A stretch of DNA of 64,000 bases from Mesodorylaimus sp. YZB2_4 (taxonomy: Eukaryota > Nematoda > Enoplea > Dorylaimida > Dorylaimidae), in NCBI GenBank assembly GCA_030248295.1, contig JASANH010001283.1, forward strand, positions 457,240 through 521,239. The letters run 5' to 3'. Position 1 is the stretch's first letter; the number at the start of each line of letters is the position of its first letter. Under the pieces are notes generated by a model. That model worked only from the letters and a program-made list of their open reading frames with translations, was not told the origin of the DNA and made no database searches. A program made the translations under genes and the position numbers. This document shows, piece by piece, positions 256 through 56,583 of the stretch.

Positions 256-3180
256 TTAATGAGACAAAATTAGCATCAAAGAATTTATGAAAGAAGCCCA
301 TAATCCAAGCTTCGCTTTTGTCAGTCCGCCATCGGCTCCCCCCACAAGGGCAAACGCTTTCTTCATTTCTTTATCATCATTACACGAGTCTCCAGAATCG
401 CAATAGCATTGCCCGCACTCAGCGACGCTGCCAGAGGTTGTCTGTGACACTTTTTTGCATCCAGCTTTTTCATTTGGTTCACATTCAAAATGTAAACTGA
501 AAGCCCCGACGTCTAAAAGAGCGTTCAGAGTATTTTCTGACGAAAACTAGTAAAATTAGCTGCACACTCTAGGGAAGCAGGTATGTTTGACCAAGTAACG
601 TTATTCGATGTTGAGGAGGAGAAGCCATTGCAGATTTGATGTGAGTTCTGACCCATGCAAGCGAATCGAGCACGTTGCCTCACGATCAATGCAAAGAGTC
701 CTCACAATAAAACTACAGGGCGAAAAGATGGATAAGGTTTGTTGGGGCACGTAATTGTGAGATACACAGGTGATGGACCCACATGAAATAAAACTTGGCT
801 AGTAAAAATTTCAAGCCCATGATTTATTGAGCTTTTTTAAGTTCTCTGTGTCTTTATCGCTAAGCTTGTTTATCTTCACGCCTGGGCTCCTTACCACACA
901 AAAATTCAAAAATTCTTTCAAAATTTTTCATAAAATGCTTTCCAGCATATTTGTAGGATATTTTAACCATATCTAAGTACCCGTATATTTTTTCTGAACT
1001 TCATATCATTACTGATCGGAGAAGACTTTCACAGAAACCCCTTTCGAAGTAGCTAGGTAGATTCAGTTGCTAGTAGATAGCGGGGCCGACATATACCTAC
1101 TGCACGGGGAATTGGCCGTCGCATAAGTCCCTGGATAGCGCAGCAAACAGGCACCCAACGCGACTGTACTTTCTACCTGCAGTTGTGGATGCTGCTGCGC
1201 ATACCCCTACAGCGCAGACGTTGGATTCGCATGTCGAGGCCGCGTTGCAATCCGAATTAAGAATTTCTTCTTTGTCATTTACGAATCGTACTTGTTCAAT
1301 GCATTTACGACATTTTAGACTGCTGCACATTTGGCCTATAATGAAAAAAGCAGGAAACACCAGAATTCTATTCAGCGACCTCTTCTTCAATTAGTCTATG
1401 AGCTCGATAAGGATAAATAGTCGAGCTTCCAATAGGAGAAACGGCTTTCGGTCCTTCACCCTTCCGTGCACAATTAACAATCACCTCTGCTTCTGGGTTT
1501 TCAATTTGTTCCAGGCAAAACCCTCCGGCGACACTCGTCGGTCGACACAGTGCCGATCAGGCCCGGCGATGAGTTAGCCCGAGTCATTCGAGGTCATAGA
1601 TGGAACTTTTTGGAAGGCTAGACAGCACTTCACAGCAGTACCAGAGAGACAGGAACGGCCACAACAAAACACAAAGCGGCTGCTTCGCTGTGGGGCTTAC
1701 CTATCCATAACATTACTTGTTGTAATACTTGTTAGTAGACTAAGGCGACCTTACTTACCTGGCCTAGGGCCAGGACTGTGACAGGGAGGTTACGGGCAAG
1801 GGCCACAGATATGGTATTTCCCATTTAGGGATACGGTTGGTAAAAATACTTCATTCCAGAGACTTTGCGTATGCTTATGCGTATACGCAAAGGAATGCGT
1901 ATGCGTATTGCGTAATACGCAAATTGCGTACCCCACAAAGTATGCATACAAGTTTAGCGTATTGCGTATTTTTTTTCAGTCAGTTCCTAGCCCCAAACTG
2001 TGACTAATTATGTACCCTCGACTAAAAATATCAACGATCATAGCAGCTGCAAGGTCATTTTGGCATGGCAGTACATTTCGCTGCCGCTTATGGCAGGCTG
2101 TAAACGTAAAAATAGAAAAATTCCTGTCAGCTTCGATCATGGATTCTTTCCAAGCACTCTTATCTCCCACCCAATCGGTGCCTTAATTGTCATGAAAAGT
2201 TTCAGCGCGGTAGTTTTTTAAACACTCGTTCAGCGAGGGCGGAAAATGGTGGCGGCGACGGCTACGAGGGTACAAGGTAATATTTAGCTTTATATAATCC
2301 AAAAACCTAGTACAGACTTTGGCTTTGAGGCAGCAGACCTGAATGACTGACCAAGTATCTTTGACATAACATTATTGACCCTATTCGATGATGAAAGCAA
2401 GTCTTTTTCCAGCACTCCGTATTATATATACACCGCTCTGCAGAAGCGCAATTCACTGGCTGCCCGATTATGTGAAGAAACATGCTGTAGACGCTTCCTT
2501 GGCATTTTCCTCATACAGTACGTAGGCTCGCTTTGAGAGGATCATCATTGAGCAACCTCAGAACTACTAACTAGTGAATCATTTCGCGGAATCGAATACA
2601 AATTCCTCCACCCACCCCGCTTGGTCTCACACAATGTACACACACACACACACGTACTGTACCTTACTGAGGAGGCTAAATAAATTACCTTAGTAGCAAA
2701 CTCGCTACAAACGATTATACTTACTTCTTACTGTGAAGCCTGGATAGGGACCAATGCATGCAAACGCGCAGGGGCTCTTGCGCTAAAAACTTCTCTTTAT
2801 GCTGGGGGCTTAATATGAGGCTTTCATGAGAGCTTTATTGCGACATTAGGATAATTTAGCTCAAGCTGCTTATATTGGCGCACCCATTATATATATTGCG
2901 TACAAGCCAGTTTGCGTGTGCGTACACGCGTACATCGGTTAGAATGCGTCTGCGAATGCGTACGCGTGTACGCATCCAAATCTCAATGCGTAATACGCAA
3001 ACTTTGCGTGTGCGTATTTTTTACGCAACCAACTGTATTTAGGGTCTGGTTTATTTGCAACCAGAGGAGCTAAGATTTTGGAGATCTGGTAGGCAGCAAT
3101 AGCAGGGAGTAATAGCACAACAGTTTTGTTTCTCCGGCCATCACACCTAGCCCTGTAGAGTGTGTCAATTTCCTTATTCT

Positions 3181-3228
<48 letters not shown>

Positions 3229-4203
3229 CTGTGTGTCCCCGCATTCTAGCAGACAATAGATTCTCGTTGCACACGTACAGGACTCAAATTTGAATATGCT
3301 ATCTGGCATCTACTAATTTATCATGTTCGGGATCACAATAATCAGGACTAATTGATAATTAGGTGATTTATTATACATAGTGATAAATGGGTGATCAGAG
3401 TGACCAAGGGATTATCAAAGTGAATCAGAGTGATCATTGAGGGATCAGAGTGATCAGTGAGTAATCAGAGTTATCAGTGAGGGATCAGAATGATCAATGG
3501 ATTATCAAAGTAAATCAGTGAGTGACGATCAGAGTGATCAGTAAGTGATCGGGGTAATAAGTGAGGGATTAGAGTGATTAGTGAGTTGTCAGAAGGACAG
3601 GGAGTTTTCAGCCTAGGCCTAGTCTAAAAGGAAGAAGCAAGAGCTCCTTCTTTCCTGCTAGTTTTGTTCTGGCATTCTCATAAGCTTTATTAGTGCCTGC
3701 AATCTATATTGGCTTATTTGATGGTATCAACCTGTATGGGTTGTGCTAGATTGAAGCATGCGGAGCTAATTGCCTTGCTAGTAAGGGCATACACCGCCAT
3801 AGTAAACAAGATTGAAGAAACTGCAGTTTCTGTATGTTAATAAAGCTTCACCAAAGCTGACACCAAACTTATAATTGTTTAAATGAAGGAGAATAAGTCT
3901 TTCTTCTCAAGTTAAATCACATCAGGTGCCAATTGATGGCTGGGGTGGTACACGTGAGACAATGAATAATCACACTATGTGAGCAAATAACACCGTAGGT
4001 TGAAAGTTAGCAGATAACAAGGCTATGAGAACTTGAACAGGCCAGACCCACGACATTTAAAGAGAGTAGATTCAATTCTGTCATTTTTCTCCAACCTGGT
4101 CAGCTTTGTTCCAGAACAGCTGGCTAAGCAACATTGGTAAAAAATATGCTCGCTTACGTGAAGACACCAGAATGATAAAGAATAATAACGACTTGTACTT
4201 CAT
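256..4203 (-). CDS. Ly6/LU-type cysteine-rich secreted protein, array gene 1
   Basis: Three exons on the minus strand: 4203-4158, 1335-1177 and 512-256, joined by two phase-1 introns with GT..AG ends (donors GTAAGC and GTAGAA; acceptors CATTATAG and TTTTAG). The lengths sum to 462 nt, giving 153 residues and a clean stop. Exon 1 encodes a signal peptide (MKYKSLLFFIILVSS). Exon 2 has six cysteines spaced C-x2-C-x17-C-x5-C-x4-C-x4-C. Exon 3 has six more, C-x6-G-C-x13-C-x2-C-x-C-x5-C-N-D, then a hydrophobic tail ending at the stop, as in GPI-anchored proteins. The cysteine layout and terminal CN suggest a three-finger Ly6/uPAR-like domain displayed on the cell surface; the ligand is unknown. Intron 1 holds a GCGTA-motif element, a GT microsatellite and a minisatellite. 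Family assignment is by pattern only; the gene structure is strongly supported by three paralogues in the window. Confidence 0.82.
1831..3038. mobile_element. TIR element with GCGTA-motif arrays at both ends
   Basis: Both ends carry degenerate GCGTAT/ACGCAA arrays (about 1868-1975 and 2895-3025). Outside them lie inverted termini ATACGGTTGGT (1831-1841) and ACCAACTGTAT (3028-3038), with one mismatch, followed on both sides by TTAGGG (1825-1830 and 3039-3044), which reads as a 6-bp target duplication. No transposase is visible, so it would be non-autonomous. It lies in intron 1 of Ly6-like gene 1. The boundaries are inferred from this single copy. Confidence 0.5.
3187..3226. repeat. (GT)20 microsatellite
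   Basis: About 20 uninterrupted GT units. The long frames reading Thr-His repeats on the minus strand are products of this run and are not genes. Confidence 0.95.
3363..3600. repeat. Degenerate GATCAGAGT minisatellite
   Basis: Roughly 240 bp of irregular repeats around the motifs GTGATCAGAGTGATCAGTGAG and ATTATCAAAGTGAATCAG. It contains no open coding frame and sits in intron 1 of Ly6-like gene 1. Confidence 0.8.
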
Positions 4204-5505: not shown

Positions 5506-5639
5506 CCAACCAGACGCCTAATGCTGAGGGACGATTTTCGCCGGCTAACAACTCGAAACCGGTTGGACGGTTGGATGCTGTTTCACATGAGCAACCAAAA
5601 CACGCCAAAGCTGTAGCGCTGCGAGGCTTATATATGAAA

Positions 5640-12900: not shown

Positions 12901-12927
12901 ATTTCTATATTTCTTGCTTCCTTCGAT

Positions 12928-13070
12928 TGTTCGTATTTATCGATCAGAGGCAAAAATTGTATGAAACTGGGGAAAAATCGCAGTGCTGTGTTTCATGTCT
13001 GTCAAGTGATCATTGGAATCGAACGGAAATTGAAGCAATGATTATGGTCGTCCAAAGTCCAAACATTGCT
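12928..13070 (-). pseudogene. Orphan C-terminal tail of a fifth Ly6-like copy
   Basis: About 140 bp closely match 17060-17196, the end of Ly6-like gene 2 and its 3' flank. In minus sense, 13069-13010 still reads an intact tail, AMFGLWTTIIIASISVRFQ plus stop, matching the gene 2 tail. The homology stops abruptly at 13070, and no exons 1-3 are found between here and 16.6 kb. Most likely this is a truncated duplicate. An ATTAG at 13073-13069 could act as an acceptor, but the phase would differ from the other genes. Confidence 0.65.
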
Positions 13071-13712
13071 AATCATGTTTAAAGGGCAGAAATTTTTATC
13101 CACGTATTATTTGCTTAAAAACGAATACCAGCGGCTGAATGATTGGATGTGGGGCGCGGATGTAAGACCACAGTAAGATCTTTCATATTTCAGTTTTCCA
13201 AAATAATGACTGGCTTGGTTGTTTGCAGTAAGACGTTTTATTGGCGGACGTCGTCGTTGTTTAGACGTATGGTTACGTCTTCGGATTTCAAAAAAGCCAG
13301 CTAATTACGATCCGCAACGCGAAACTGAATGGCGCCAACAACTATTGGCTGCGAAGAAGCATCCTGAACGTCCAGACGATACTGTGCTGCCAGAATTACG
13401 CCAGTAAGGGCTGCACGCAAACGTTGCGTTCGTACTTGAGTTTATAACCAACAACATCATTAAGTGGCGTTAGACTTTCTTTTTGCTTTGCGTCACCATG
13501 TCGTGACTTTGGAGATGGTTTTTAGATGCTTAGAAGTAAATCAATGGTTGCATGGAGTCTAAATCACTAATTACGGTTAGGTGGTACACCACACTGAAGG
13601 TCGAAATTCCAGCCTTCGGTGGGATGGAAACATGCGTGGATCCAGTCAAAATTTAATCGATTCCACATGGATTCTCTGCCACTTCTGCATTGGATCCATC
13701 TGGACTCCCATG

Positions 13713-17135: not shown

Positions 17136-19860
17136 TCAGTGGAACGAAACGGAAATTGAAGCAATGATTATGGTTGTCCAAATTCCAAACATTGCTTTTC
17201 TTCCTACACTGTCTGGGAGCAGTTTGACCGCTTCATCTAATTGTTTATCATCATTGCATTTGTCACCCGAGTTGCAAATGCACAGTGCGCAAGTAACGAC
17301 CACGCCAGACTCCGTCTTAGTTGAGCTGCTGCATCCCATATTTGTCTCAGTCGCACAGTCGAAAACGCCCGTGATAGCTGACACGTCTAAAACAGCATAT
17401 GTACTGCACCCCATTTCCCAAATTAGCGTTTTCTCACTAAGATCTTTGCTATTTTCTGAATAAGACTCCGTGAGTCCGTGCTGAGATCTCGGTCAGATTT
17501 AGCCCAGATCTTAGGCAGAGCAGGGAAATCCTAGGGACGTTTTTAAGCTTCTGACTTAGATCCTTACATTTCCCTAAGATTGCTCACTGGCGCTTAGATT
17601 TTGCTCAGACTTTGTGATAAATACGTGAGATAGGAAATACAAGTGTGCACGATTTTGTCTTGGGATAGGGCATAGGGTTTGTCACGATTTTGTCACGAGT
17701 CCATGCTGGTGAGCATATAAGATCAGCAAACGATAATTTTAATCTCCAGCTCCAGCTTCCAGCAAGTGTTAGAACTGATTAATACAGGCAAATTAAGATT
17801 ATAAGTTATTGTTTGTGCGAAGTAGTCTTCACAGATGAAAAAGTCGCAAGTTAACTAGCAATAGATAACATAGGCAAGGCTTTCTGTAAATGCGGACCAT
17901 ATGAAAATTGCATTTGAAGTAGAGTATAGTTGTTGTAGGACATGGGCATTTTAAATTAGCTGACCAGGCTATATTCAATGAAAAAATTTCATAATACAAA
18001 ACTGAAAGGCTGCAGATGTGGTTTAATGCGCCTCTGGAGCAGGCCGGTTCAGGCTGACAAATGGTGATCAGGAAAGATCCTGCCTGGCTATTGGCTGGTC
18101 ACATGTATTCGCAGTTTTGGGGTTGACAAGTAGACCATAAAAACTAGCCTCAGTGACGATACCAACTTGCGGAGAGTGGCTGAAATCAGAAGACTGGTTA
18201 CCGATACCATAGCTTTAACCTCCATGTCCATGTCCCATAGCCATGTCTGATTTTTGTAAAAATATTGCAGGTGCTCTTATTTCCGGCAGAAAAAAAACGC
18301 AAAAAATTTCTCGGCTGAATTGTGTCGAGAAGACTTTTTTTTAAAACCTAATGAGCTCGAGGAATCATTTTCAAAAACTCTTTTCTTAGAAAATCGTTCA
18401 ACTTTGAACTATGTCATTGACATCAAAGTATGTTCAGTGAAAATTTTAGTCATACGCCACCATACATTATACACCTAACACCAAACCACGCTCAAACCAT
18501 GGCTTTGATTTGATGCTGTGCAATGAAATCTGCGAGTCTCTTGAAGTTGAGAGAAAGATTTTCTTTAGAATTGAGTTTTTGTGATGTAAACGCATTGGTA
18601 GTTTGCATACTTCCCAGGTTATAGTCTCACGTCACTTGCTTACGCACAGCTTATGGTCAGGCTACCGCAAAGGGTACTTCTGCGAGAATGTTACCAGCTT
18701 CTAGCACTAGCTAGCGCGCCTGCTCTGCTTAATATCGACAAGTAAAGTAGTTGTCTACTAGGGTCTTTAACAGTGTTAAATTTTTCAAATTCCCCACAGA
18801 CACCTGGAATATTGAGAAGTCGATCCATGTTTACCTTTCCAGATAGCCCAACCAACCCCGTGCGGCTTGCAAGATAAACTGTAGCTACTTCTTACCGTGT
18901 TTCCCGGATGCTCCTCCACATACCAGTACTGAGCAGGCACTGCCATCGCATTTTGCTGCATCCGCGCAAGTATCATGGCTTGCTTCTTTGTCACCTTTAC
19001 TAACTATAGCCGAGGAGCATTGATTACATTTCAGACTGTTGCCCAGGTGACCTGTTAAAGAGAGATGGCGGGAAAAATTATTTGAACAAAAATTTAATCA
19101 ATAATCATTTTGTCTGTATGCTCGGCGTCAATCATCACACATTATAATACAAATCAGGGCCGAGATACAGTTTCCTAGCTTTGTCAAGAAAATTAAATTT
19201 TTTGTCGTAACGCTCCAAGTTTTCGCTGGGTAAGTTCGCAGTCCTAAAGCTTTCGCGCGTTGAAGCACCCTTATCAATGGAGTGATCATCTTATATACTG
19301 TATCTGTTTTGTATATTATTTCCAAGCGTCAAAAATTTTGTCAGACTGATGTGTCATTTTTCAGCAACTTTGTGGAATGGAATTTTAATAAAAGCCATAT
19401 TTTTACCAAACAAATCAGCATATTGTCCGAAAAGATTGCGAAGGACACACACATGCGTCAGGCTTATCCGAGTCCGAATGAGGCAACCTAACCAGCAGAA
19501 GCTATATATATCAGGAAAGCCATTTAACCAAGATTTGACGCCCTTCAGGAGCCAACCCGCTGCCTAATTTCGGGGAAGCCATAGATGGACTACGCTGATG
19601 TGCTTGGTCAAAGGTGTCGGACGAGAACATGAGTAGATCAGCGCAGTGTCATGCATTCAGGGGTTTATATATGGGCTGGTAGTGCATAGCTTCTTCCTTG
19701 GTAGCCTATATTTTTTCCTGCAAACCTTGGCAACAGAAAGACTGCCGAGGCAGACCAACAGACATTGTTAATGATAGCATATTGAACAAGAATGAGCTCA
19801 CTCACTAAAAGAAACTAAGAAAATAAAAAATAATAACGACTTCTTTGTCACCGAATCCAT
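17136..19860 (-). CDS. Ly6/LU-type cysteine-rich secreted protein, array gene 2
   Basis: Exons 19860-19806, 19051-18896 and 17386-17136 on the minus strand. Both introns are phase 1 (donors GTGAGT and GTAAGA; acceptors TTTAACAG and TTTTAG). The total is 462 nt, or 153 residues. Exon 1 is a signal peptide (MDSVTKKSLLFFIFLVSF). Exon 2 has C-x2-C-x16-C-x5-C-x4-C-x4-C. Exon 3 has C-x6-G-C-x13-C-x2-C-x-C-x5-C-N-D, followed by a GPI-type hydrophobic tail (AMFGIWTTIIIASISVSFH). This is the same architecture and tail fusion as gene 1. Intron 2 carries a copy of repeat C (18015-18148). A frame remains open upstream of the ATG to 20247, but that region is a dispersed repeat and is better read as 5' flank. 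Surface display via GPI is inferred from the tail. Confidence 0.83.
17427..17620. repeat. AAGATCTTTGC-rich dispersed repeat, copy 2
   Basis: CACTAAGATCTTTGCTATTTT followed by several AGATCTT/AGATCTCGG/TAGATCC motifs, matching the start of 9497-9610. It lies in intron 2 of Ly6-like gene 2, just 5' (minus sense) of exon 3. Confidence 0.5.
18015..18148 (+). repeat. Repeat C, copy 1
   Basis: About 135 bp shared with 49291-49426 (same orientation) and 50947-51110 (inverted): ATGTGGTTTAATGCGCC, then GCCTGGCTATTGGCTGGTCA and GACAAGTAGACCATAA. Similarity to the 49-kb copy continues a little further (GAGAGTGGCT). It has no coding frame. It sits in intron 2 of gene 2. Confidence 0.8.
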
Positions 19861-32700: not shown

Positions 32701-35700
32701 TCTGCGGCTCAGGCGCTCGGCCAGCTCGGCTGGAAAAGTTGAAAATTTTCAACTTTTCTAGCCGAGCTAGGAAAAATCGTTCTGGAGTTATCAACAGGAC
32801 AGTAGCCAATCTCGATACAAATATGGATTATGATTAAATTATTCAATTATTGTGAACTTATGAAACGGTTTATCGGTTCTAGCTGCTAGAAATCTCGAGA
32901 ACTGCAAGGTTTAAACCAGGGAACTTGGTAAAAAAAAGCGGATAGTCTGATGGGAGTCGGCATCATTTGTGTGCTGAGGGAACGTGTGGGACTGAGGTGT
33001 CAAATTTGGCATTGTAATCCAAAACGGGATTAGAGAAATGGTCCCGAGGAAGTCCGCTAAATAGTGCGATTAAAGATTTACAGAAGGCACGCTAATTGAA
33101 TTTAGAAACGAGCAACTACAGTAGAGTTGCCCAACCCAGCCCTATAGCCCAGTCCAGCCAGGAGTTGCCCAGCATATGCGTCGATGATGGTATTACTAAA
33201 AATGGCAATAGGTGAACCGATTCTAGCAAACCTGTTAACTACTGTAGGTAGATCAATTACTGTTCCTTCTCATTCTGATCATTAAAGATAGAACTGTTTA
33301 ACTGATACTTCATGTGCCTACTGATTTAAAAAATATGCTCGTTCGTCAGTGCACGTATGCGTGGTTGGTATATCTGAGATGCTAAAGGTAAGTTGATGCA
33401 ACACGTTGTGCATAGGTCATATACTGCTCTTTCGTTCAGCAGACCAATAGCAGCCATATTTTAGTTTCATTTTTTTGATTTTGACGATGATTATTCTCTG
33501 CAATAGTCGTGCTCCTGGGGAAACTTTCCGCGAGCCGAGCAAACCGAGCTCCTCAGCCGAGCCCGCCGAAAAGCAGACAGAATGTTTCAATCGGCGTCGC
33601 GGCATCAAATGTGAACGACCCAGCCGAGCTGAGATGACCGCAAGCCGCAAACTGACGATGAGCCAGCCGCAAGCTGAGCCAACCGAGGCATGCAATGTGA
33701 ACGCACGTCAGCTCAGCTGACAGCTCGGCTGGCTCGGTTAGCTCGGCAGCCGATCAGCCGAGGTGCAATGTGGACGCCGCTTTAATGGTCAGACAATTCA
33801 TGACAGGGAATCAGACGTCAGACGTCAACTTCCCTCAGAAGAGGTGAAATTTAAACCAAGACTTTTTTCGTGGTCTTACAGAGTCTTATTAGACTTCTTC
33901 TTACCGTTGGCCCGACGGAAAAAATTTCAGGTGGTAGCGTCGTTATCTCTTTCCCTCCGTGTAGTTTGTCCATCGCCATCTTAAATTGGTTTTCATCGTT
34001 GCATGAGTCACTCGAGTCGCAAAAGCATAGTCCGCAACGAAGAACCTGCGATTTATTTTCACTTCTGCATCCCGTAGTGGTCAAATTCGAGCAGGAAAAA
34101 ACAGTATAGAGAGTAGAGTTTTCTAAAACAGTGTATGTAGCGTTTTCTTGCAGGAATAATAAAAAACCGACTCCCAACTTTTCTGACAGGCCCGTTGCAT
34201 TTAGGGGGCGCCCCCCCCCCCCCATGTTGCGCATATTGTGCCACACCAAGAACGATATCTCAACAGCCTGATGTCGTAAGGCGATGAAATTTCGTTTCTT
34301 GGTGTAACTTTACACTAGACAAAGTTACATTTTGACAAAGTCACAAAAGAAAGGCAAAGTCACAAAGTTACATAGTTACAGGAATTTTAAAAAATCTATC
34401 AATTCAGGCTCCATTCATACTAGGGGTGGTTATTTTCGCTAAGACTTGCGAACCGTGTGCCAAAACCGATGAAATTTTGGCGTGGAAAGACCAATAGTTG
34501 GGGAAGGCGTGATGCAAAAATCTTTTCAAAATCTCTGCTATCGTTCTATGTATGTAGATAATTATGTGCTATTTATGTGCTACGAATGTATTGACCCGCA
34601 AGATCGGGAGCTGTGTGCGAGTTGGGGATCCAGCTGTATGTTTAAACGACAGGGTAGAATCACTGCTGGTGCCTTTTGGTGTTAATTTTGACTAGGTTTT
34701 GCCCTCTGTTTAGCCCTTCGTAACTACAGTACGTCTGTTGAGCGTTAAGGCACGGTGTCGTGCGTGCTCGACATAATTTTACTGCGCAGAGGGTAAAGAG
34801 ATAAGACAGCCCAATAATAGTCATCGGATGGATGATGAACCTCATCAATTTTCCAAATAAGGTTCGGTTTTTTAAGTGTAGAGTCATTCGCCTTATTCTG
34901 TCCGCTCCCTCCAAGCTTCGACTATAGGGCCTCCGAAACGACAATGAGTGTTATATACATGTGTGGTGCCGCAAACGATACTATTTTGCACATGCTGGCG
35001 TCCGGCAAGGCGCCGTGGACTAGATTCACTAGTATACTAGGTGGTTCAAAACAAAGAATTAGTCTAATTCGTGCATCATCGTATTCCTGTATTTCGTTTG
35101 AAAAAACCAATAGACAGCATTTATGATTATCTTGATGCGCTCTTCGTTCATCGACTACGTAGAGTCCGGATTTCGTGCGAGCTCCAGAATTAATTCTCCT
35201 AATTGATTTCAAAACCAAATTTCGAGCGTTTCAAGCAAAGTTTCTTATATATTTTTGGAATTCCTTGCCACACGATGTGCTACTCTTACAATCAGTTTTG
35301 CATCTTTTCGTGACTCCATTTCGAGGTTGATGTTTGACTGACGAAGTATGGTTTTATCTTTTTATCTTTCTATTTATCCATTTTATCGAGTGATGTTTGA
35401 ATTCCGAATCCATTGTACTTGCTCTTTTGAGTGCGCATTTATGTGGTTAGGTAAGAGTAAAATAGAAATACAAATGGGTTAGACACGAGATCAACAATAT
35501 CGGCCTGGCAGCAGCGCGTGAAACAGGAGCGATTTTGGATCCATCCATGCCTTCATCAATGACAAGGGCGTGATTCTATAATATGATACCGCTAATATCG
35601 TTACCTAACCGATTCAGGAAATCTTGGGTCTCCAAGCCTGCAGCCAGCAGAGAGTCTGGAAGGGTATCCAAATTTGGTGATCGAGATGTTTGGTGAAACC

Positions 35701-38700
35701 ACACCAAGGGCCACTGGGCGATCAAACGCGTCAGCAGCCGGTGTTAGTGACCAATGAAGAAGCAACTCCTGCTTTTGGCCAGGATTGTATTGCAGCGTTC
35801 AAAGTGGCCCCAGTCAAATTCACATTCGCGGATCTCTTCAGCGACAACTTGTCGCATCAACGCGAACTGTTAGCTTAGTGTTGAATGTATACGATCTGTT
35901 CGAATTACTATCACTAGTAGCTGCGGGGACATTTGCGGGGACCAGGTACCCACCGAAACCTTTGCTTTGTGTGACTTAATGGAAAAGGTTCGTTCGCCTA
36001 GTTCGCCTAGTTCGAAGTGAAAGAGTTCGTGAACGGTCAGGTTGCTTATGTGGGAAGATTCGCCACGTCATAATCCTGGCTTGGTCCAAGGCCACAAAGC
36101 GGCCATCCTCATGTCCGACGCGTTTCCAAAGATGCCACGTCCAGTGCCACTGTCGATTCGATCAGCGGCGGACGCAGAAATCGATCGGTTGGCAAAAGAT
36201 GGAGTCCTGGAGACATTAGATTCTACCGCAAGAATGTCGACTGGTGGCACTCTTACTTTGCTCCCGAATGCGCGGGGCGCATTGCGCTCAGGCAGTTCTT
36301 TTGTTAGCAGTAACACTAAAAGTAAGATTCGGAATCAGAGTCGCGCGCTTCTGTTCCTTCTCTGGGTGGGCTTCTGCTGTGACCGCAGCGAAAGCAGAGC
36401 GCGAAAACGACGGAGTAGTAAAACAGTTTGCAGGGAGTTCTTGCTCACAACTCAGCTTAGCGCTCGACGCAGCAGTGCCAACAGTATATGTGCATGTCAT
36501 ATCATGTCATGTCATACTTTATCCATAGCCAAGCACCGTACTGGGCACTCGAGGACTGAGGAACACATATTTTACAATCATTTCTCTGAGGCGGGAGTCG
36601 AGCCCTGCCCTCGAGGTGCGCACCCAGCGTGAGATGCAGACTCCTTAACTCGATAGGACACAACCCTGGGTGAGTATACAGGACTCCGACATGCGAGTCG
36701 ATTTTCAATTGCGTTACTATCCTCCAACCATCAGGAAATGTAGTCCAATCTAGAAGTTCAAAATGAGCGCCGAAGGCGCGATCTGAGGGCGCGAAGCGCT
36801 CGGGAGAGGCTGGGGTGCGGTAAAGAGTGACAGTAAAGAGAAAAGACCCTTCGTTCCTGCGTCCTAACACGATAAGCAGCTTAGCGGGTGTAAATTATTA
36901 TCTGTTGTCCTTCTTTACATCACTCGCGGTTGCTCTCCAGTCCGCGACAGCCGTTGGCCCAATGCAACCCCTTGTGCGCGCCACTGGGGTTCATCCCTGC
37001 ATCCCTGCCTAAGAAAATTTTAATCTTGCACTCCGAAAACACATAATGTGTTGAGTGGCATGCACCGAAATAGCCCTAAGTTATCAAAACATCTTCTGAA
37101 ATCGCTACCACTTTCTGAAATATCAAAACGCTGGTCCTCTGATTTAGAGTTTGGGCTTCTTTGTCCCCGACACTATGTGTTGAGTGGCATGCACCGAAAT
37201 AGCCCTAAGTTATCAAAACATCTTCTGAAATCGCTACCACTTTCTGAAATATCAAAACGCTGGTCCTCTGATTTAGAGTTTGGGCTTCTTTGCAAGTTCT
37301 GCCTCGATCTGTCACAAGTCGCCCTCTCTAAGTCTCCTCTTTTACTGTACAAGAGCTGGAAAAATCGTGGTGAAACGCTCATCCATTGTGCTTGTGACTT
37401 GATATATTTCTACTGTATATACTTGCAACGTGTTTCTACTGGAGGGTTCACAGGTATGTACAGATATCTGATTACCTGCTGGCATCTCTCAGGCCTTCTT
37501 TTCTAACTTGCGATTTTGTTTGTGACGAAACGCGAGTACTAATAAAGTGCCTCGGCGAATCTGGGCCGTGAGCTTACCAATTCAACCAAACGCAGCTCGG
37601 CAAGAAGATGAATCGGTCTCTTGATTCCTTTGACGGACTTCTAACTTCTTCACAGAAACTATGGGTATATTTCTAATGGACGAAGAATCCTCTAAAGTCA
37701 AGTCATTTATCAGGATATTGCTCTCAAGGACTTCAGATCAGCGCAACTCTGTCTGTGTTTTACCATTGATGCAATTAGCAACATCATGAAAACCCTTTGC
37801 GCAGGACAAGTGATGCGATGTTTTTTTTATCTAAACATGTATAATTGATCCCCAAACTGCGCAAGTCTAGAAGTAGGTGATCCTGGCCTTGATGGCTAAA
37901 TTAGGACATCATTATCTTTTATTTATTAGACTGCGCTTGCATGGTAGCGGCTCTTTGGGAGGACCTACACTTCCAGTCGATGCATTTCACTTTTTAATTT
38001 CGCAATCTTCCCGAATCAAGACCCTATATATAGGCTTGATGTTTTTGGGTACGGTACTAACTAAGTCACATAAAAACATTTTTTCCGGAAATTACAAGCA
38101 TAATTTTCAATAAAGAGCGCAATTAAGGGCCGCTCGAGACTTGGGATTATTTGCTTATGTTCTGAGGATTGCGGGACAAGCCATTTGGGAGGTACCAGTA
38201 ATATAGCGCAAGCAGCACGGCTTTGTATACTCATTATGAGTTGGAAATATCGATTACTTTATATTATTTCATATTTAATAACGTGAAAGTCTTAGTTGAC
38301 CTTCGTAGACACCCAGAAAATTGTAAGGCTGGAAAAAGTCGATATCCCTGATTCTCTAAATGGTCCAGCCATGCAGGTGACTTACTCGGTAAGCCTACTT
38401 CTTACCATGGCTTCTTACCTGTTAAGCAAGCAGCTGTTCCGCAGGTTCGGTCTTCGCAAATCTTTGAAGCATCGCAGTCTGAGCGAATTTTCTCTTTTCC
38501 GTCTTCTTTTGCAATCTCAGTGCAATTACGGCATTTCAGACTGTTGCTCATGTGACCTAAATAAAGACAACTGGCGCGATAAAATAAGAACAAATTTGAA
38601 CAAACAAGCTGCAAGCGACAATAATCATAGACTTTTTATAAGCGAGTGTATTCGCCTCCACGGTGTCGGCGTTCACCCATTTCCAGTCTGTGCCCTGAAG

Positions 38701-39396
38701 GGGCCCCGGGTTCGAGACTCTTCCGCCCCAAAAGGCCTCCTCGTTTATCGACATGGAGGGATGAGGGATGAGTTAACCACCACCGAGCTTGCAAAAAGAA
38801 CTTCAACAAGCTCTCAGACGGCCAGATTTGAACTCAGTCAGAGCCGACTGGCTTCCAGCTCTGCCGAGCAGATTGGACACAAAGCTTCCAACTTGACAAC
38901 TTGACCCTCTCACCGATACACCGAAGCTTCAAACTTGAACCTGCAAGCTTCTACTCAAGTGTGGCCTGTGCTTTGCAACTCGATAACTGCTGCTTGCTCA
39001 GTTCTGTCTTTTCATTGCATTCTTCCAGGGAAGCACTAGCTCAATTCTGCCACAGAACCATTGGCACCATGTCACACGTAACTTGCCTAGCTCAATTCTC
39101 TCATTTGATCTCATGACAGAATTTGAGCTATATGGTCCTCAAACTGCAAATTTCAGATCCATACTGTAAGCTTCGACTTTTGACCCCAGTTTCATTTGTT
39201 ATGTTGGTGCACAAATGAGAGATGACACGTTTAGTGATGCGACACTCCTTCTAAACCCAATGTTCAAGAAATCATCAGCTGCGGGGCTTTGATGGCCGCA
39301 GACTTATGTTCAGACGTAGCATATTAGTAAACAATAATGCGCATACTCACTAAGAGACACTAGAATAATGTACAATAATACGGACATCCTCACCAT
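29784..39396 (-). CDS. Ly6/LU-type cysteine-rich secreted protein, array gene 3
   Basis: Exons 39396-39351, 38556-38419, 34122-33905 and 29879-29784 on the minus strand. Introns 1 and 2 are phase 1 and intron 3 is phase 0; all are GT..AG (donors GTGAGT, GTAAGA, GTAAGA; acceptors TATTTAG, TTTTAG, TTTTTTAG). The total is 498 nt, or 165 residues. Exon 1 is a signal peptide (MVRMSVLLYIILVSL). Exons 2 and 3 carry C-x2-C-x15-C-x5-C-x4-C-x4-C and C-x6-G-C-x10-C-x2-C-x-C-x5-C-N-D, with NST, NLT and NKS glycosylation sequons. Exon 4 is the GPI-type tail (IKAMFGIWVNFKFFLILVLV). Without splicing at 33905 the frame runs 18 codons to a hydrophilic end at 33851, so a non-anchored isoform is conceivable. 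Intron 2 holds a SINE, a Ty3/gypsy fragment and a 129-bp tandem duplication; intron 3 holds three DNA transposons. Pairing of exon 4 with this gene is inferred from phase and order. Confidence 0.75.
29992..31082. mobile_element. MULE-like foldback element with GATTCCCCCAC-array TIRs
   Basis: Both ends are about 140-bp inverted repeats made of CGATTCCCCCACT and CGTTTCCCCCACC units (29995-30131 and 30921-31080), flanked by the direct repeat GATTTATAGG (29982-29991 and 31083-31092). The 10-bp target duplication and long inverted ends fit Mutator-like (MULE) foldback elements, which normally make 8-11-bp duplications. The interior (30131-30921) encodes no transposase and contains a GATCCGAT-ended repeat. 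It is inserted in intron 3 of Ly6-like gene 3. The paralogous place in gene 4 (about 47280-47315) lacks it. Confidence 0.85.
30415..30715 (+). mobile_element. GATCCGATC-ended repeat, copy 1 (inverted partner 48065-48365)
   Basis: Ends carry CGATCCGATCCGACTGCTGGATC and GGATCGGATCGGTCGATGC; between them lies sequence reverse-complementary to 48065-48365 (GGCATACTA, GAGAAAATCCCGTTTT, TGTCCTTCGGAGTAG, GAGGACGCAGTGCCAA). It is nested inside the MULE-like element, so it inserted later or is carried as cargo. Confidence 0.65.
31482..32465 (-). mobile_element. PIF/Harbinger-type DNA transposon, decayed
   Basis: The 40-bp terminal inverted repeats (31482-31521 and 32426-32465) match at 39 of 40 positions and begin GGCCCGGTTCCTGAATCGCG. 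Subterminal regions are filled with TTAACTGGGCAG-type motifs in both orientations. Flanking trinucleotides are CTG and ATG, an imperfect version of the 3-bp duplication expected for this superfamily. The interior carries a minus-strand Harbinger nuclease remnant (separate entry). Confidence 0.85.
31862..32115 (-). pseudogene. PIF/Harbinger DDE nuclease fragment, frameshifted
   Basis: The minus-strand frame 32115-31930 reads FFHIWNVPCVIGAIDCSQ, the first catalytic Asp block of Harbinger nucleases (consensus V-x-GAIDG/C). After a frame change, 31921-31862 reads IYYNRKHPLNQ, matching the conserved YxNRK block that follows it. The spacing and order are as in the family. The N-terminus, the remaining catalytic residues and the Myb-like partner are missing, so it is inactive. 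Confidence 0.8.
32486..33780. mobile_element. GCCGAGC-motif TIR element with TTTAA target duplication
   Basis: A 1295-bp element whose ends (32486-32775 and 33525-33780) are GC-rich inverted arrays of GCCGAGC/AGCTGAGCC. Outermost inverted sequences are CAACATTGCACCTCGGCTG and CAGCCGAGGTGCAATGTGG. Both sides are flanked by TTTAA (32481-32485 and 33781-33785). No transposase is visible in the AT-richer core. It begins 20 bp after the Harbinger element and ends 124 bp from the exon 3 donor of Ly6-like gene 3. The superfamily is not assigned; a TTAA-type (piggyBac-like) target is one possibility. Confidence 0.85.
34237..34480. repeat. Dispersed repeat, inverted partner at 51637-51873
   Basis: GTGCCACACCAAGAACGATA, AACAGCCTGATGTCGT, GATGAAATTTCG and GTGTAACTTTACACTAGA reappear reverse-complemented at 51782-51873. 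CGATGAAATTTTGG and TTTCGCTAAGACTTGCGAACC reappear at 51645-51690. The middles differ. Confidence 0.65.
36042..36255 (+). pseudogene. Ty3/gypsy reverse transcriptase N-terminal fragment
   Basis: The frame from 36042 includes GHKAAILMSDAFPKMPRPVPLSIRS..AEIDRLAKDGVLETLDS. This is the segment that opens the reverse transcriptase of Ty3/gypsy elements (RPVP-hydrophobic, then LxxLxxxGVIEPVxSS). The expected W-A-x-P-I-V-x-V-x-K block is lost after the STGGTL stretch. No LTRs are seen. It is a decayed fragment in intron 2 of Ly6-like gene 3. Confidence 0.7.
36493..36665 (-). mobile_element. tRNA-derived SINE, copy 1
   Basis: In minus sense it starts with a tRNA-like head: GAGTTAAGGAGTCTGC, anticodon-arm-like ATCTCACGC, and B box GGGCTCGACTCC. 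A unique body follows (TATGTGTTCCTCAGTCCTCGAGTGC), then a tail of TATGACATGACATGACATG repeats. The head and body match 57421-57590. Pol III promoter boxes plus a short repeat tail are the hallmarks of SINEs. Confidence 0.75.
37046..37292. repeat. 129-bp tandem duplication, two identical copies
   Basis: About 118 bp (GTGTTGAGTGGCATGCACCG... to ...GAGTTTGGGCTTCTTTG) are repeated exactly with a period of 129 bp, and an 11-bp spacer lies between the copies. The period is a multiple of three, so the 152-codon frame at 37048-37506 stays open. That frame has no recognisable domain. The exact identity implies a very recent event or an assembly artefact. Confidence 0.9.
38900..39300. other. Intron 1/upstream sequence, nothing recognised
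   Basis: The sequence within intron 1 of Ly6-like gene 3 shows no repeat family or exon that I can identify. Confidence 0.4.
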
Positions 39397-46990: not shown

Positions 46991-47025
46991 TATGACTTCG
47001 AGTTTAAATTGGCCAAATTTCCCTT

Positions 47026-47110: not shown

Positions 47111-50100
47111 TCAACAAACAAGAGCGAGAATTACAGCAATCATAAAATTAGCCCATAATCCAAACATGGTTATTTTGCCAACAGCTGTTTTTCCTTTTGT
47201 CGGCTGAAAATACTTTCTTTTAGTCAGAGGTAAGAAGGCGAGTAATCAGAGGCGCTGTCACGCGACATATCAGAAGGGCTTGGTCTGATTTAACTCTTTA
47301 TTTGTAGGTGAGAGGACCTGACGTCTGATTTTCATTCATTAGTGGTCTGACAACTTTTTATAACTAATTAGAAAAGGATCGTGCAGATTCTCTTCCACAT
47401 TATATTTGTCTAACCACTCAATTTCCCCACCCAGCTCTGCCATTTCTCCACTACTTTAATGTTACTTTCACAAAAGGAAATATAGACCACAGCTGCCATA
47501 TATCCCCTCCGAAAATTGATCACGAATCGATTGGCAATAGTGAACAAGCGGGAATCCTGGAGAGACGGACGTCGGTTGCAACTGTCAGAACGACATCTTA
47601 TAAAACATTGAACCGAACCGACCGCTTTCGTCATCGTACGATATTGCTGATATTAGAATGTGGAAAATTGTTATAGGGGATACGGAAACTGAAAAACTCA
47701 GAAAGGTCGTTCATTCTTTACTGATCAATCTCAGGAGAAGTGATCTTAGCATATTTGTTTTACTCAGAACTCCACTCTGAGAGATGAGCTCTCCTTACTC
47801 CTCCCTTGGCTTCCCCTACCTCCAGGTAGCTACATGAACTCTTAAAGTTAACCTTACGATGAATCATTTTTGAGCAGCTGAGTGAGTCGTGCGCAGAAAA
47901 AACCTAACACTCGCATCTTTCATCTACCTTCAGAATGATCTCTCCCTAGAGTCATGGGTAGATCGGTTCTGCTCAGTCGGTTTGGTTCACGGTTTGCAGG
48001 AAACAACCCAAAAGAGGTGGAACCGAAATTTCGGTTCTGCACCGAAAAAATTGTTTTGGTTCCATGGCAGCCCAGCATCGACCGATCCGACCCTGGGTCT
48101 GGATCCCAAAAGAAGATAGATGGGGATGACGTGTTTGGCACTGCGTCCTCACCAACCCGCAACGGCTCCTCGCTGTCACTCTGTGTTAAACTACTCCAAA
48201 GGACACAGGATAATTAACCAGCGTCTAAAAATGGGCTTAAAAATGCTGATTTGAGAGATAAAACGGGATTTTCTCATCGTAGTATGCCACATTTTATCAT
48301 TTTGCAGCAGATGAAGTGCAAAAACTTTTAGTTACCAATCCGGCTGATCCAGCAGTCGGACCAAATCGAAGAGCTCGAGGTGTGGGAGGCGGGTGGTGCG
48401 GTGACTGCTACATATGTTCCCTCCTCGCGTTTTTATACCCTCTAACATTAACGGAAACAAAATGTTTGTTTCGGAATTTTGGGTCCGCCAATGTCAATAA
48501 CTTATAAGGCAAACGATAGGACGTTAAAGCGGAAACTCTTGCTAAAAAGTTCAACCTGTTTGGAATTATTGAAACGAAAATTCATAAGTCGATATGTGAT
48601 GATGAAATTGCGATACCTGGTTATTCTGTTTTACGTGCCGATCGAGTCAAAAGGGGCGGCGGTATTGCTATTTATTTCGAGTCGTCAATACGACATTGAA
48701 AAGTCGCATGTCTACGCAGGCCGCCTCATTTTAAACGATTGAAAGATTACATGAAAAAGCAAGCGATAAGTTTCATTGCTAATTGGCCTCAGCAAAGTCC
48801 AGATTTAAATCCTCTCGAGAATTTGCGGGCTTATTGCGCGAAAAAACTGCGTGATTTTCAGTTTTCGAATATGGATCAACTGTGGCAACGCTTAAAAGTT
48901 ATTTGGGAGAACGCGCCGTTCGAACTGATTAAAAAATTGATTGCCAGCATGCTCAGTCGTCTCGAGGCAGTTATCAAGAGTGAGGGGGGAACTACTCGTT
49001 TTTGAATGCTGATAATCGCTAGAAAACAGTTGATAAGAAAATAAACGTGTCTGTTTGGTCAGAATGGCGGATCTGATAAACGCATTTCTATCTGGTCCTA
49101 TTTGCCACTAGATGCCAAAACATAAAACCTCAAACTGAATTATAGGTTTTGCGCACCAGTGTACATCGGAAGAGGTTAACAAGAAATGTAGCTGGTCTTC
49201 GCTTTACAGTCGGCGGAAGCATTTGAAATAGAGGCAATTTCACAAATTTTATTAGCAAAAAACTCATGAAATGAAACTTGGAAGAGTAGTACATGTGGTT
49301 TGATGCGCCTTCGGAGAAGGCCGGTCCAGGCTGAAAAAAGGTGATCAAGAAAGACCCCGCCTGGCTACTGGCTGGTCACATGTACTCGCGGTTTTAGGGT
49401 TGACAAGTAGACCATAACAACTAGTCACATTTATGTCACCAGCGAGGGGAAAGTGGCTCCTAGAAGATGCTCTCATCTGCACTTCTTGCATAGTGCATAT
49501 TAAGGGACTATGTTATGCAAAATGCTATTACTCAGGACAGCGCTTTCAATTTCATCATCTCTTGCTTCAGGCAGGAATTTTGAGGAATCTGCATCTTCGC
49601 TGGACTTTCTTGCAGCTATTGGGCGCATCGAGTTTTCGAACGCAGGGATGTACAGTATCGCATGCCTGTCACTTTCGAGCCGATGCATGGAGTTTATGCT
49701 GATGAATATTTGTACCTTTTCTTTAAAAGTAAATAAGGATTTGCTAAATCATTGCAAGAATGAGTTTTAATAGCCTTTAATGCAGATTTTTTTCACATTT
49801 TTAAAATTTATTTGGCGGCCATCCAAAGCTGAATAGATAGGTCAATGAGCTAGGATATAACACACGCTTGAAATGGTGAACGCTCAGGAGGAATCTTAGA
49901 AGACATCATTTTTACGTTGCACAACTCGGGAAAACATTTTTTGTCAATCGCACTGGTAAGGGTTAGGCTTACACTTGCAGTCATAGTTGTTGTAGTGAGT
50001 TTATCAGTTCTGTCTTCTGTCCTATTGCCTAAGAACATTGATATGCGACGCTGGGTGCGGAAATTATGTGCGAAATTTATTACGAATTGCTATCAGAACT

Positions 50101-53100: not shown

Positions 53101-56100
53101 TTCGCTGGCACACCCTAGTCTATGCAGCTGGGCTGGTAGGTGACTGGACGAGTGAGACAACTGCAATAGCACAAGACTCACAAACAGCAGGGGCCAGTTT
53201 CACAGTGCGATTCTAATTTTTCACAGAACGAATTAAGGGCACTATTTCGGACAGCAACTTGGGGCAACGCTTAGACACCAATTTGGGGCGCTTCACAATA
53301 GCTGTCCTAGAGGTGCCTTACCCGTAGATTTGGGCACGTCCTGAGACAGGTCTCATCTTGTTTCATAATTAAAAAGGATGACCGAGACATTTTAGCAGAC
53401 CACTAAATTTAACGCGGGAAATAAATACTGTACGTGTAAGCTGGGCATCCATTACTGGTCGAAGTATGCTGTGCGATTACATTTGAATAATTTTACTACG
53501 TCACGAGGATGCCTTGGCCAAGGAAGGCTGGTCCACATTATATGAGCTCTGTAAACGTGCCACATTGAGTTTATTTTAGTGGGTTTTGTATTTGGGAGTC
53601 CTCCTCTTATGCACAGAATCTGACCGTCATGTCAGAAGACTGCGTGAACCACATCATTTGTTTTTTCCAAGTCATAATTTGGAGTCCACAGAGTTTTGTG
53701 TTTTCTGCGACTGTTTCACGGGATTCTTCCCTATGGGATCATGCTTGCTAGTGACTCTGTCACGCGTACAAGTTTTAATTAACACTGTGTCCCCCCTCCC
53801 CTATCAAGTGCATGTATTTGCTTGGGTAAAGATGGAGTAAAATGATGATAATGGGATTCTGTCGTCCCTTTTTGGCCTCAATAGTTAAAAAGGGACGACA
53901 GAATTTTAGTTCAGCTGCAAAAGAACAATTTTTACGGCTCGAAAGGGCTAAGGCAGAATGCCACAATCTCACGACGCCCAAAAAGTTGCTCTACAAAGAT
54001 CAGCTCGAAATTGCTATAGATTAAGGGACATTGCCCTGTGCCTGACAGCGCTGCTGTGAAATGAAGACATCAGGAGTGTCTTAAACTTACTGTGTGACTG
54101 CCTGGTGTCCTTGGGTGGGATACCAAGCTGATTGTGAAATGGCTTAGGACTGTCCCAGAATTCAGGACATGCCTTGGGATTTTAGAACTGTATAACTGCC
54201 CCCCAGATCCCTACTCAGGAATGCAGGAGCTTGAAATGTTTTCATCAACATTTCACTAAGTTTACTTTCTTCCGCTGTTCGAAAAAAAGTCAGCCGCCAC
54301 AACCCCAAGCCACTCGGTCTAAAAATCCAGCGCAACCAAACCAAAAACCCCAAAACTGGGTCGGGTTATGTAACCCAATGTTGGGCCTGGGTACTTAGTA
54401 CACGACAAGGCGGACGAAATGCTTCTCACACTGCCAGTTTTCTTCCTCCTAGACCCTCCCCTACCCCTGATTTGATGGTAAGACTTTTAACGACAGAAAC
54501 TTAGACATTCAGTTAAACGACTTAGCCCTTTCCCCTTTAAAATTAGAAACAGTGAAATTCAGATCAAGACCTTTTTCGACGTCTGACAGCGTCTGTTTAG
54601 AAGCCTCCTTACTTTAGTAATTGGGTGCTGTCCGTATAGCACGCCAGCCGCTTTATTGCGTAGTTGTTCATTATCACTGCAATTGTCACTCGAGTCGCAG
54701 ATGCACACTCCGCAAAAAAAAATCTTATCCGCCTCCGTTCTGTTCTCAGCTAAGCATCCAGTTTTTGTATTATTATAGCAGGTGGATGCAGTAATAAAGG
54801 AGCCTAAAAAACATTTAAAGCATTTTCTTACGGGAATTCTACAATGTCCCTGCTTGTCTGGTAAGCATTTCAGATACGCTCATGATAATCTTAGTTAGTG
54901 CTAGAAGCACAGCGGGTAAAGCATCTGTTACAGCGATCCAAGCAAAGGATCGAGCTCGTTGCTTATTACTGGTGCGATAGAGTCGTCAAATCAACGAAGC
55001 AAGTCATGGATGGGGCAGCTTAATTTAGACAGGGTGGCTGTAAGTGTCGACCAAACGAATATTAACTCGGCGTCACAGCTACTCGTATTTCGACCGGTGG
55101 GTATTACTTTATGCAATGCGCCATAGGTTCCTGATGTCAAGGAAGTTGAAAATTGTTTCCACCGCCATTTCTCGGAAAATTCATTGAAATAACCGCTGAT
55201 GTGAAAGGGGCGGATTATACAAAATTCCAGGCACCAAACCTTGAGGCGAAAAACTTTTCATCACCATTAAAGTTTTTCTCCTAGCTGTTTTCAATATGCT
55301 TGACAATATAAGAGACAAATGCATTAAAATAAACTGCGGAGTCCAGTTATGATCGAAATTCAAGAATGCATTGACCGAAATCGAAAATTTTACATCTACT
55401 GTAGAGCGCACTGCTTGGAAATAGGCAATTGTCCTACAAAATCGTTTTCCCATCAAGCGTATGAGCCGTATGAGCGGACTTCTTCTGACTCCTTCAGCGA
55501 TGGTGACCTTGCAGAAGCAAGGTTATAATCCATCTCCTCATGCCATGAAGAATTCTCCTGGCCAATTCTCAGAGACGATGGGTAATAGTTATACTCGACA
55601 GGTCGTTCATTATCAGTAAGCATGGAAAACAGGTGAAGGAAAGATATCGAATCTTTCATTCGTGGAAATAAGAGTCGAATGCTCACAGACACCCGGATAA
55701 TCATAAAGTCGATATGCCTGATTCTCTCAAAGGCATAGCCAAGCAGGCGACTCAATAGATATAGACACCTGTGCATAGGTGCTTCTTACCTCCTGGTTGT
55801 GATTCGCATGCAGCAACTGCACAGGTATCGCCATCACAAAGCTTTGTGACATCATTTTCGCAGTTCGATGAGACGTTTAATGAGCCATCCACATGAGTTA
55901 CAGTCGCCGAACAATCACGACATTGCAGACAACTGCACGGTTGGCCTGAAAAGAAAATGGCGCGATCGAACAGCTTGAACAAACGGGCTGCGAGCTAGAA
56001 AACAATCTGTAGGGGCCTACACAGTTTGATTTTACACTTGATTTTTATTTGTGAATTATATGCGTCTATAATTAGTGATAAAGAAGCGACAGTTTTTTCT

Positions 56101-56583
56101 CTAACCCTCTTTTCACGTCATTTAAAACAACACTTTTTCTCGGGAATGGTTTTGCATTACTAGCAATAACTCGCTCACTTTCCAGTTTCTAGTTTTTTGC
56201 GATCAGCAACACACCAGCGCGGTCGCGAAAGAATGCGGATTGGAATTTTAGCCACAAAAAATTTCTATTCCTTGCCTATATCCAGATATATATATATATC
56301 GCTAATGTGAATGATGGCCTCCCACTTGACGGCTTCTACGCATACTGGCCAAGAAGGGTAGGACTTGAGGTCGGAAGTGTGGGACAAAGCAATTTTGAAT
56401 TGATCGAACAAGCGGTGTGCCATGAGGGGCTTATAGTCTTTGTGGGGCTCACAGTTTTTATCTCCCAGCAGCTGGAGGATACTAATGGGCACAGACGCAG
56501 AAATGGCATAAAAGTAAAAAAGTACGTGCTTACTTACTTAGAGACACTAGAATAAAAAACAATAATATGAACTTCCCCACCAT
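47111..56583 (-). CDS. Ly6/LU-type cysteine-rich secreted protein, array gene 4
   Basis: Exons 56583-56538, 55945-55790, 54803-54613 and 47203-47111 on the minus strand. Intron phases are 1, 1 and 0, with GT..AG ends (donors GTAAGT, GTAAGA, GTAAGG; acceptors CTTTTCAG, TTTTTTAG, ATTTTCAG). The total is 486 nt, or 161 residues. Exon 1 is a signal peptide (MVGKFILLFFILVSL). Exon 2 adds two extra cysteines before the common C-x2-C-x16-C-x7-C-x4-C-x4-C. Exon 3 has C-x6-G-C-x13-C-x2-C-x-C-x5-C-S-D and NNT/NRT sequons. Exon 4 gives the GPI-type tail (MFGLWANFMIAVILALV). Unspliced read-through at 54613 ends 17 codons later in a basic tail like that of gene 3. Intron 3 is 7.4 kb and contains the Tc1 remnant and two copies of repeat C. 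Assignment of exon 4 rests on phase, order and paralogy with gene 3. Confidence 0.75.
48065..48365 (-). mobile_element. GATCCGATC-ended repeat, copy 2 (inverted partner 30415-30715)
   Basis: The reverse complement of 30415-30715: AGCATCGACCGATCCGACCC, GGCACTGCGTCCTC, ACTCCAAAGGACACAGG, AAAACGGGATTTTCTCATC, ending ATCCAGCAGTCGGACC. Two copies with conserved internal order and inverted GATCCGA-rich ends suggest a non-autonomous DNA transposon. Confidence 0.65.
48739..49163 (+). pseudogene. Tc1/mariner transposase C-terminus and probable terminal repeat
   Basis: The frame 48739-49005 reads WPQQSPDLNPLENLRAYCAK, the diagnostic Tc1 motif containing the second catalytic Asp and the third acidic residue (D34-type spacing region), and ends MLSRLEAVIKSEGGTTRF, typical of the family C-terminus. 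The expected upstream DNA-binding and first-Asp regions are not readable in any frame. Past the stop, GGTTTTGCGCACCAGTGTA (49145-49163) looks like a Tc1-type end next to a TA site. This is a truncated, inactive copy. Confidence 0.85.
49291..49426 (+). repeat. Repeat C, copy 2
   Basis: ACATGTGGTTTGATGCGCC...GGCTACTGGCTGGTCA...GACAAGTAGACCATAACAAC, closest to the inverted copy at 50947-51110. It lies in intron 3 of Ly6-like gene 4. Confidence 0.8.
50947..51110 (-). repeat. Repeat C, copy 3 (inverted)
   Basis: Reverse complement of copy 2, with similarity extending to TAGTTTCATTTCATGAAT, which mirrors ATTCATGAAATGAAACT next to copy 2. Together the two form a 1.8-kb-wide inverted pair that could fold in RNA. 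Confidence 0.8.
51637..51873. repeat. Dispersed repeat, inverted partner of 34237-34480
   Basis: AAATTTCATCGGTTTTTGG, GTTCGCGAGTTATAGCGAAAA, AAGTTACACTAAGAAACAAA, ATCAGGCTGTTGAGATATCG and GTGTGGCACATG match the 34-kb copy in reverse. Confidence 0.65.
52464..52650 (+). mobile_element. TGACCT/AAAATTTTCT-motif element
   Basis: It begins CGCTAGTGTTCCAATGACC and continues with three 50-60 bp units of CTGACCTGACCCTGACCTTG plus CCCAAAAAATTTTCTG. Same family as 9108 and 13713. Confidence 0.55.
53856..53904. repeat. Perfect hairpin, 18-bp arms, 13-nt loop
   Basis: ATTCTGTCGTCCCTTTTT (53856-53873) pairs exactly with 53887-53904. Neighbouring sequence gives no target duplication. It lies in intron 3 of Ly6-like gene 4. 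Confidence 0.85.
54860..54960 (+). other. Weak tRNA-like segment
   Basis: AGCACAGCGGGTAAAGCATC resembles a Pol III A box and AAGGATCGAGCTCG a poor B box about 40 nt later. It lies in intron 2 of Ly6-like gene 4 and is probably a decayed SINE head. Confidence 0.25.

Follow-up and report, generated by a model that had tools for sequence, protein, structure and literature searches.

The window analysed here is a stretch of 64,000 nt from the nematode Mesodorylaimus sp. YZB2_4 (contig JASANH010001283.1, hereafter C63, positions 457,240 to 521,239), and it carries a tandem array of four minus-strand genes, g1 to g4, whose predicted proteins have a signal peptide, twelve domain cysteines and a hydrophobic C-terminal end in common. 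We consider it likely that these are nematode members of the Ly6/uPAR (LU) superfamily, coding for three-finger proteins that are attached to the cell surface by a glycosylphosphatidylinositol (GPI) anchor and that possess an extra pair of cysteines.

Gene models and coding constraint

When g1 to g4 were rebuilt base by base on the minus strand, all 14 exons were located and joined (Table 1), giving coding lengths of 462, 462, 498 and 486 nt, respectively, with frames that close exactly and with GT-AG at 10 of 10 introns. Introns 1 and 2 are of phase 1 in every gene, and intron 3, which is of phase 0, occurs in g3 and g4 only. The common architecture, lengths and phases of the original prediction were thus reproduced, and the four genes of its array are real, but the array is not limited to them, since a fifth gene (gene 5) is found to the left of the window, at a distance of about 4-8 kb. 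In the protein alignment, g2, g3 and g4 are 39, 39 and 35% identical to g1; 24 columns are invariant among the four genes and cysteines occupy 11 of these, the twelfth cysteine (third in order) being gap-shifted in g2. N-x-S/T motifs number four each in g3 and g4 and are absent from g1 and g2.

Table 1. Exons of g1 to g4 and associated features (window positions)
Feature	Positions	Strand	Basis or remark
g1 exon 1, signal peptide	4158..4203	-	ATG to GT donor, phase 1
g1 exon 2, six domain cysteines	1177..1335	-	AG/GT, phase 1
g1 exon 3, six cysteines, hydrophobic tail and stop	256..512	-	gene reconstruction
g2 exon 1, signal peptide	19806..19860	-	gene reconstruction
g2 exon 2	18896..19051	-	gene reconstruction
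g2 exon 3, with hydrophobic tail and stop	17136..17386	-	gene reconstruction
g3 exon 1, signal peptide	39351..39396	-	gene reconstruction
g3 exon 2	38419..38556	-	gene reconstruction
g3 exon 3, six cysteines	33905..34122	-	phase-0 donor
g3 intron 3, 5' end, in-frame read-through, 17 codons and stop	33851..33904	-	similar to g4
g3 exon 4, hydrophobic tail and stop	29784..29879	-	gene reconstruction
g4 exon 1, signal peptide	56538..56583	-	gene reconstruction
g4 exon 2	55790..55945	-	gene reconstruction
g4 exon 3, six cysteines	54613..54803	-	phase-0 donor
g4 intron 3, 5' end, in-frame read-through, 17 codons and stop	54559..54612	-	
g4 exon 4, hydrophobic tail and stop	47111..47203	-	gene reconstruction
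Orphan last exon, hydrophobic tail and 3' flank	12927..13071	-	65 nt at 91% to 17132-17196; alignable into 3' flank of g2

Each of the two cysteine signatures described for exons 2 and 3 in the original prediction is found at four places in the window, the exon-3 spacing having been slightly widened for this count (x8-14 instead of x10-13), and neither occurs in any of 60 dinucleotide shuffles; both are likewise absent from the 220 kb left of the window. In leave-one-out searches, in which a profile of three genes was run against 10508 open reading frames (ORFs) of 284 kb and the fourth gene was sought, exon 3 was recovered at E values of 9.1e-13 to 3.1e-17 and exon 2 at 3.4e-5 to 8.9e-10. Among outsiders, gene 5 (up to E 2.6e-6) and an orphan last exon (up to E 6.2e-5) scored best with exon 3, and a 20-residue piece (E 0.0024) with exon 2. 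The Nei-Gojobori ratio of nonsynonymous to synonymous change (dN/dS) is 0.38-0.61 and below 1 in all six gene pairs, as expected of coding sequence; the upper bound obtained by bootstrapping stays below 1 for five of the six and is 1.02 for g2-g3, and the ratios are rough because dS is high (0.83-1.55). The four genes form a real gene array.

An acceptor-like TTTTAG lies 46-59 nt 5' of the ATG in all four genes (at about 4262, 19906, 39452 and 56632 on the minus strand; distances counted by hand), and it could belong to an intron of the 5' untranslated region or mark a trans-splice site. The exact Caenorhabditis elegans SL1 leader is not matched anywhere in this assembly.

Comparison with the LU domain

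According to PMC6600238, a typical LU gene has one exon for the signal peptide and two for the domain, the flanking introns generally being of phase 1; the intron within the domain falls at the tip of loop 2, exon 3 includes the GPI signal, and the genes are often clustered. The same exon layout, with its phase-1 introns, is found in all four genes of the window, the tail of g3 and g4 having a fourth exon to itself. In each gene, the sixth and seventh domain cysteines are separated by intron 2, a position that corresponds to the C5/C6 interval and thus to the tip of loop 2. This mapping, in which C5 is the fifth cysteine and C6 the seventh, was made by hand from anchor cysteines and with the aid of a gene 6 as a ten-cysteine guide. 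Gene 6 is a hand-joined model on the plus strand of C63 at around 322.1-322.6 kb, with its tail in exon 3; it scores 21.0 bits against Pfam CD59, under the cut-off of 33.9.

In PMC4492491, schistosome Ly6 proteins were selected by at least 10 cysteines in 60-110 amino acids (aa), C1-x2-C2 and C10-N, and the eleven members have C8-C9 spacings of 0-1 and C9-C10 spacings of 3-5. In g1 to g4, the 12 domain cysteines span 79-89 aa, and C1-x2-C2, C8-x-C9 and C9-x5-C10 (spacings of 1 and 5) are present in each gene; the residue following C10 is N in g1 to g3. The two extra cysteines are placed by the hand mapping five residues after C5 and three residues before C8, which suggests a sixth disulfide connecting one cysteine in finger 2 with another in finger 3. 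Some LU domains are known to carry additional disulfides, for example those of long-chain neurotoxins, LYPD6 and type II receptors of the TGF-beta family (PMC6600238).

The C-terminal hydropathy peak is 1.90-2.62 in the four proteins, and the start of the tail, FG[IL]W or LGLW, is kept in all four genes and in the orphan exon. This hydrophobic end is probably a GPI signal, so that the proteins, called secreted in the original prediction, are more likely to be GPI-anchored.

Evidence for LU membership and rival readings

Profile comparison with hhalign connects the family to three LU-like proteins that this genome encodes (gene 6, L040 and L042) at E 4.4e-6 with signal peptides included and at E 2.2e-6 when gene 5 is added. 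The mature domain only gives a score of 21.4 (E 0.0026), which was reached by none of 100 full column shuffles (best 17.8) and by none of 100 shuffles keeping the cysteines (best 20.0, E 0.0051), the reversed control giving 9.4 (E 0.51). Among these proteins, L042 exceeds the cut-off of PF00021 UPAR_LY6 (26.0 vs 24.8 bits), L040 and gene 6 being under every LU cut-off; a fourth protein, L039, exceeds the cut-off of QVR (37.2 vs 27.3 bits). QVR (PF17064, Quiver u-PAR/Ly-6-like) is an ecdysozoan LU-type family. At E up to 10, the genome matches its model at 39 places, of which two are over the cut-off and several lie close together on contigs C5, C132 and C184. A six-frame genome search with Pfam UPAR_LY6 at E 0.001 gave no match, and it was uninformative because it gave none in 14 control genomes either.

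Gene 5 is divergent and on the same strand as g1 to g4, with exon 2 at C63:453007-452876 and exon 3 at C63:449606-449317, exon ends being read by hand from the sequence; in this model the tail is in exon 3 and there is no intron 3. Its 12 cysteines follow the order of those in g1 to g4, and 10 of the 12 cysteine columns are invariant in the five-row alignment. Its exon 3 matches the family profile of g1 to g4 at E 0.00013 and the QVR model at E 0.0018 (19.7 bits, below the cut-off of 27.3), so that gene 5 serves as a bridge between the array and QVR.

Several results weigh against LU membership. The Pfam LU families (PF00021, PF17064 and PF25152) have no match in g1 to g4 up to E 10, a result that tests detection by a model and not a structural feature; the sole Pfam match of the four genes in this range is unrelated (g2, E 0.18), and a PDB profile search gave three matches, all to one unrelated protein, at E 0.8-1. 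The QVR score of gene 5, itself under the cut-off, falls to 14.7 bits once exon 2 is joined, exon 2 by itself matches only a zinc-finger model of Pfam (E 0.031), and no signal-peptide exon was found for gene 5 in about 4.5 kb with three filters. An exon on another contig (L043, C47:668990-669340), which over 60 residues is 40% identical to gene 5 and shares its C-x2-C-x-C-x4-C-N ending, has no Pfam LU match at E up to 0.01. The mature-domain match is modest, covering 27 C-terminal columns, with the best cysteine-keeping shuffle near to it. In addition, g4 has S in place of N after C10, and a mid-protein segment is nearly as hydrophobic as the tail in g1 (1.71 vs 1.90) and g2 (1.91 vs 1.96).

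A first rival reading supposes a separate, non-homologous disulfide-rich family that acquired the CxxC...CN spacing and the 1-1 intron layout by convergence; the absence of Pfam LU and relevant PDB matches for g1 to g4, the presence of 12 cysteines and not 10, and the narrow margin of 21.4 over 20.0 are all in its favour. We nevertheless consider convergence unlikely, because gene 5 bridges the array to QVR, because the intron phases and position, C8-x-C9, C10-N (in three of four), clustering and tail are all LU-like, and because the real score was reached by no shuffle of either kind. The Ly6-like character claimed in the original prediction is well backed by the architecture, the cysteine spacing, the intermediate gene 5 and the profile comparison, but since g1 to g4 have no Pfam match, LU membership is likely and not proven.

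A second rival accepts LU-type proteins but holds that they are secreted: either the main transcript lacks the tail (g3 and g4 retaining intron 3), or the tail belongs to the folded protein. In its favour, the frames of g3 and g4 continue for 17 codons into intron 3, and the two read-through tails, basic and having one additional cysteine, are identical at 11 of 17 residues, gapless over 54 nt and terminated at the same codon (TAA and TGA). GPI signals have their stop where the hydrophobic stretch ends. This is also the position of the stop codon here, and the conserved start of the tail in the four genes and the orphan exon, together with the lack of intron 3 in g1, g2 and modelled gene 5, makes the secreted alternative quite unlikely. 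A related idea is that g3 and g4 switch between a tethered and a soluble form, splicing of intron 3 giving the GPI tail and its retention a protein ending in the 17-residue tail; we regard this as improbable, and it stays speculative because conservation past the exon-3 donor is not unique, pockets of intron 2 being conserved too. That the array consists mostly of decaying, unexpressed pseudogenes, as the orphan last exon at 13.0 kb, a sub-threshold transposase fragment within the window and the missing recognisable first exon of gene 5 might indicate, is very improbable in view of four open frames, splice sites intact over 14 exons and the aforementioned dN/dS ratios.

If g1 to g4 are GPI-anchored LU proteins, the signal peptide would direct each of them to the secretory route, and one LU-type domain with the canonical ten cysteines and the extra pair would be formed; the C-terminal hydrophobic signal would be removed in the endoplasmic reticulum and a GPI anchor put in its place, and the protein would be displayed on the outer cell surface with its loops binding a partner. 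Binding of a surface partner is a natural guess because LU proteins of Drosophila function in septate junctions and the targets of Quiver/Sleepless are a nicotinic receptor and a potassium channel (PMC6600238). By analogy with other invertebrate LU proteins, the likeliest kind of role would be to modulate a receptor or cell-surface trafficking.

Evolution, genomic setting and meaning of the array

Between g3 and g4, dN of the mature protein excluding cysteines is 0.62 vs a Jukes-Cantor distance of 0.48 in the flanking introns, and dS is 0.95; the coding sequence is changing about as fast as the nearby introns, with the cysteines kept. Of the original proposal of a fast-evolving surface or defence family, the fast evolution therefore stands, and the dN/dS comparison proposed with it revealed constraint; because dN/dS stays below 1, however, neither positive selection, which was looked for, nor a defence role is demonstrated. 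Intron 3 was probably acquired in the lineage of g3 and g4, since the models of g1, g2, gene 5 and gene 6 have the tail in exon 3. The array probably grew via tandem duplication with exons lost and gained. Orphan exons and pseudogenes have been reported in LY6/three-finger-toxin clusters (PMC10421932). No upstream exons of its own were found for the orphan last exon at 13.0 kb. Its use as an alternative last exon of g2 was rejected, because an in-frame stop lies just upstream and the sole AG remaining between this stop and the ATG would, on hand reading, make a junction whose phase differs from the phase 0 of g3 and g4.

The window is the right end of C63, so that the array could extend past the assembly on that side. 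The assembly comprises 145 Mb in 1067 contigs, and its 133 matches to the nematode cuticle collagen N-terminal domain at E up to 0.001 indicate by themselves that the genome is a nematode's. The genome-wide profile search proposed in the original prediction was run with the profile consensus of g1 to g4 as query, and its eight matches at E up to 10 are exons 2 and 3 of the four genes themselves; at this sensitivity, therefore, the close subfamily is confined to the array. A match on C111 (E 0.021) was rejected, since none of the three forward frames of that locus (L041) contains such a protein. Single-protein queries gave further weak matches on C70 (E 0.15) and, with gene 5, on C8 (E 0.047).

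Other features of the contig were also recorded. Within the window, these are a DDE transposase-like fragment (DDE_3, E 0.00076, below the cut-off) at 48700-49002 on the plus strand, a dispersed repeat in 2-3 copies of 81-86% identity (23022-23187, 42609-42776 and 58811-58882) and a tandem duplicate of a 123-nt unit with 98% identity (37041-37292). Left of the window, there are two pairs of equal-length ORFs with identical first 60 residues in each pair, C63:276310-277233 and 286025-286948 (L028, L027) and C63:301954-302574 and 313499-314119 (L025, L024), which suggests recent duplication of both; the latter pair may represent a lipocalin-like gene.

Among known systems, g1 to g4 resemble the single-domain GPI proteins of the LU family (PF00021; PMC6600238) in exon and phase layout, C1-x2-C2, C8-x-C9-x5-C10-N (with N in three of four), tail and clustering, and they differ from them in having twelve cysteines, no Pfam match and, in g3 and g4, a fourth exon for the tail. 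Their likeness to Quiver/Sleepless is via exon 3 of gene 5 at a sub-threshold score, g1 to g4 themselves being unmatched. SmLy6A-K of Schistosoma mansoni are also Ly6 genes of a worm, whose products have signal peptides and are predicted to be GPI-anchored, and the authors infer that these genes were duplicated recently and have diverged rapidly; they have, however, the ten canonical cysteines and belong to a flatworm and not a nematode (PMC4492491). ODR-2 of C. elegans, called a Ly6 protein in that paper, is by this description another nematode Ly6-related protein. Among the listed titles and abstract openings on Ly6 in nematodes, Ly6 clusters and cysteine counts, in which subscription papers were mostly not covered, we found no twelve-cysteine nematode Ly6 array.

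Most likely, g1 to g4 are a new subfamily or branch of the known LU kind and not a new system, and our results suggest that this nematode possesses an LU branch of its own, characterized by the extra cysteine pair. Because Pfam matches none of the four genes, annotation that leans on Pfam would miss them. The extra pair provides a concrete structural prediction, and if the two-form idea were true, g3 and g4 would each supply decoy and anchored versions of one three-finger protein from a single gene. The four genes also show clearly how an array can expand in tandem, lose and gain exons and diverge rapidly while its cysteine frame stays fixed.

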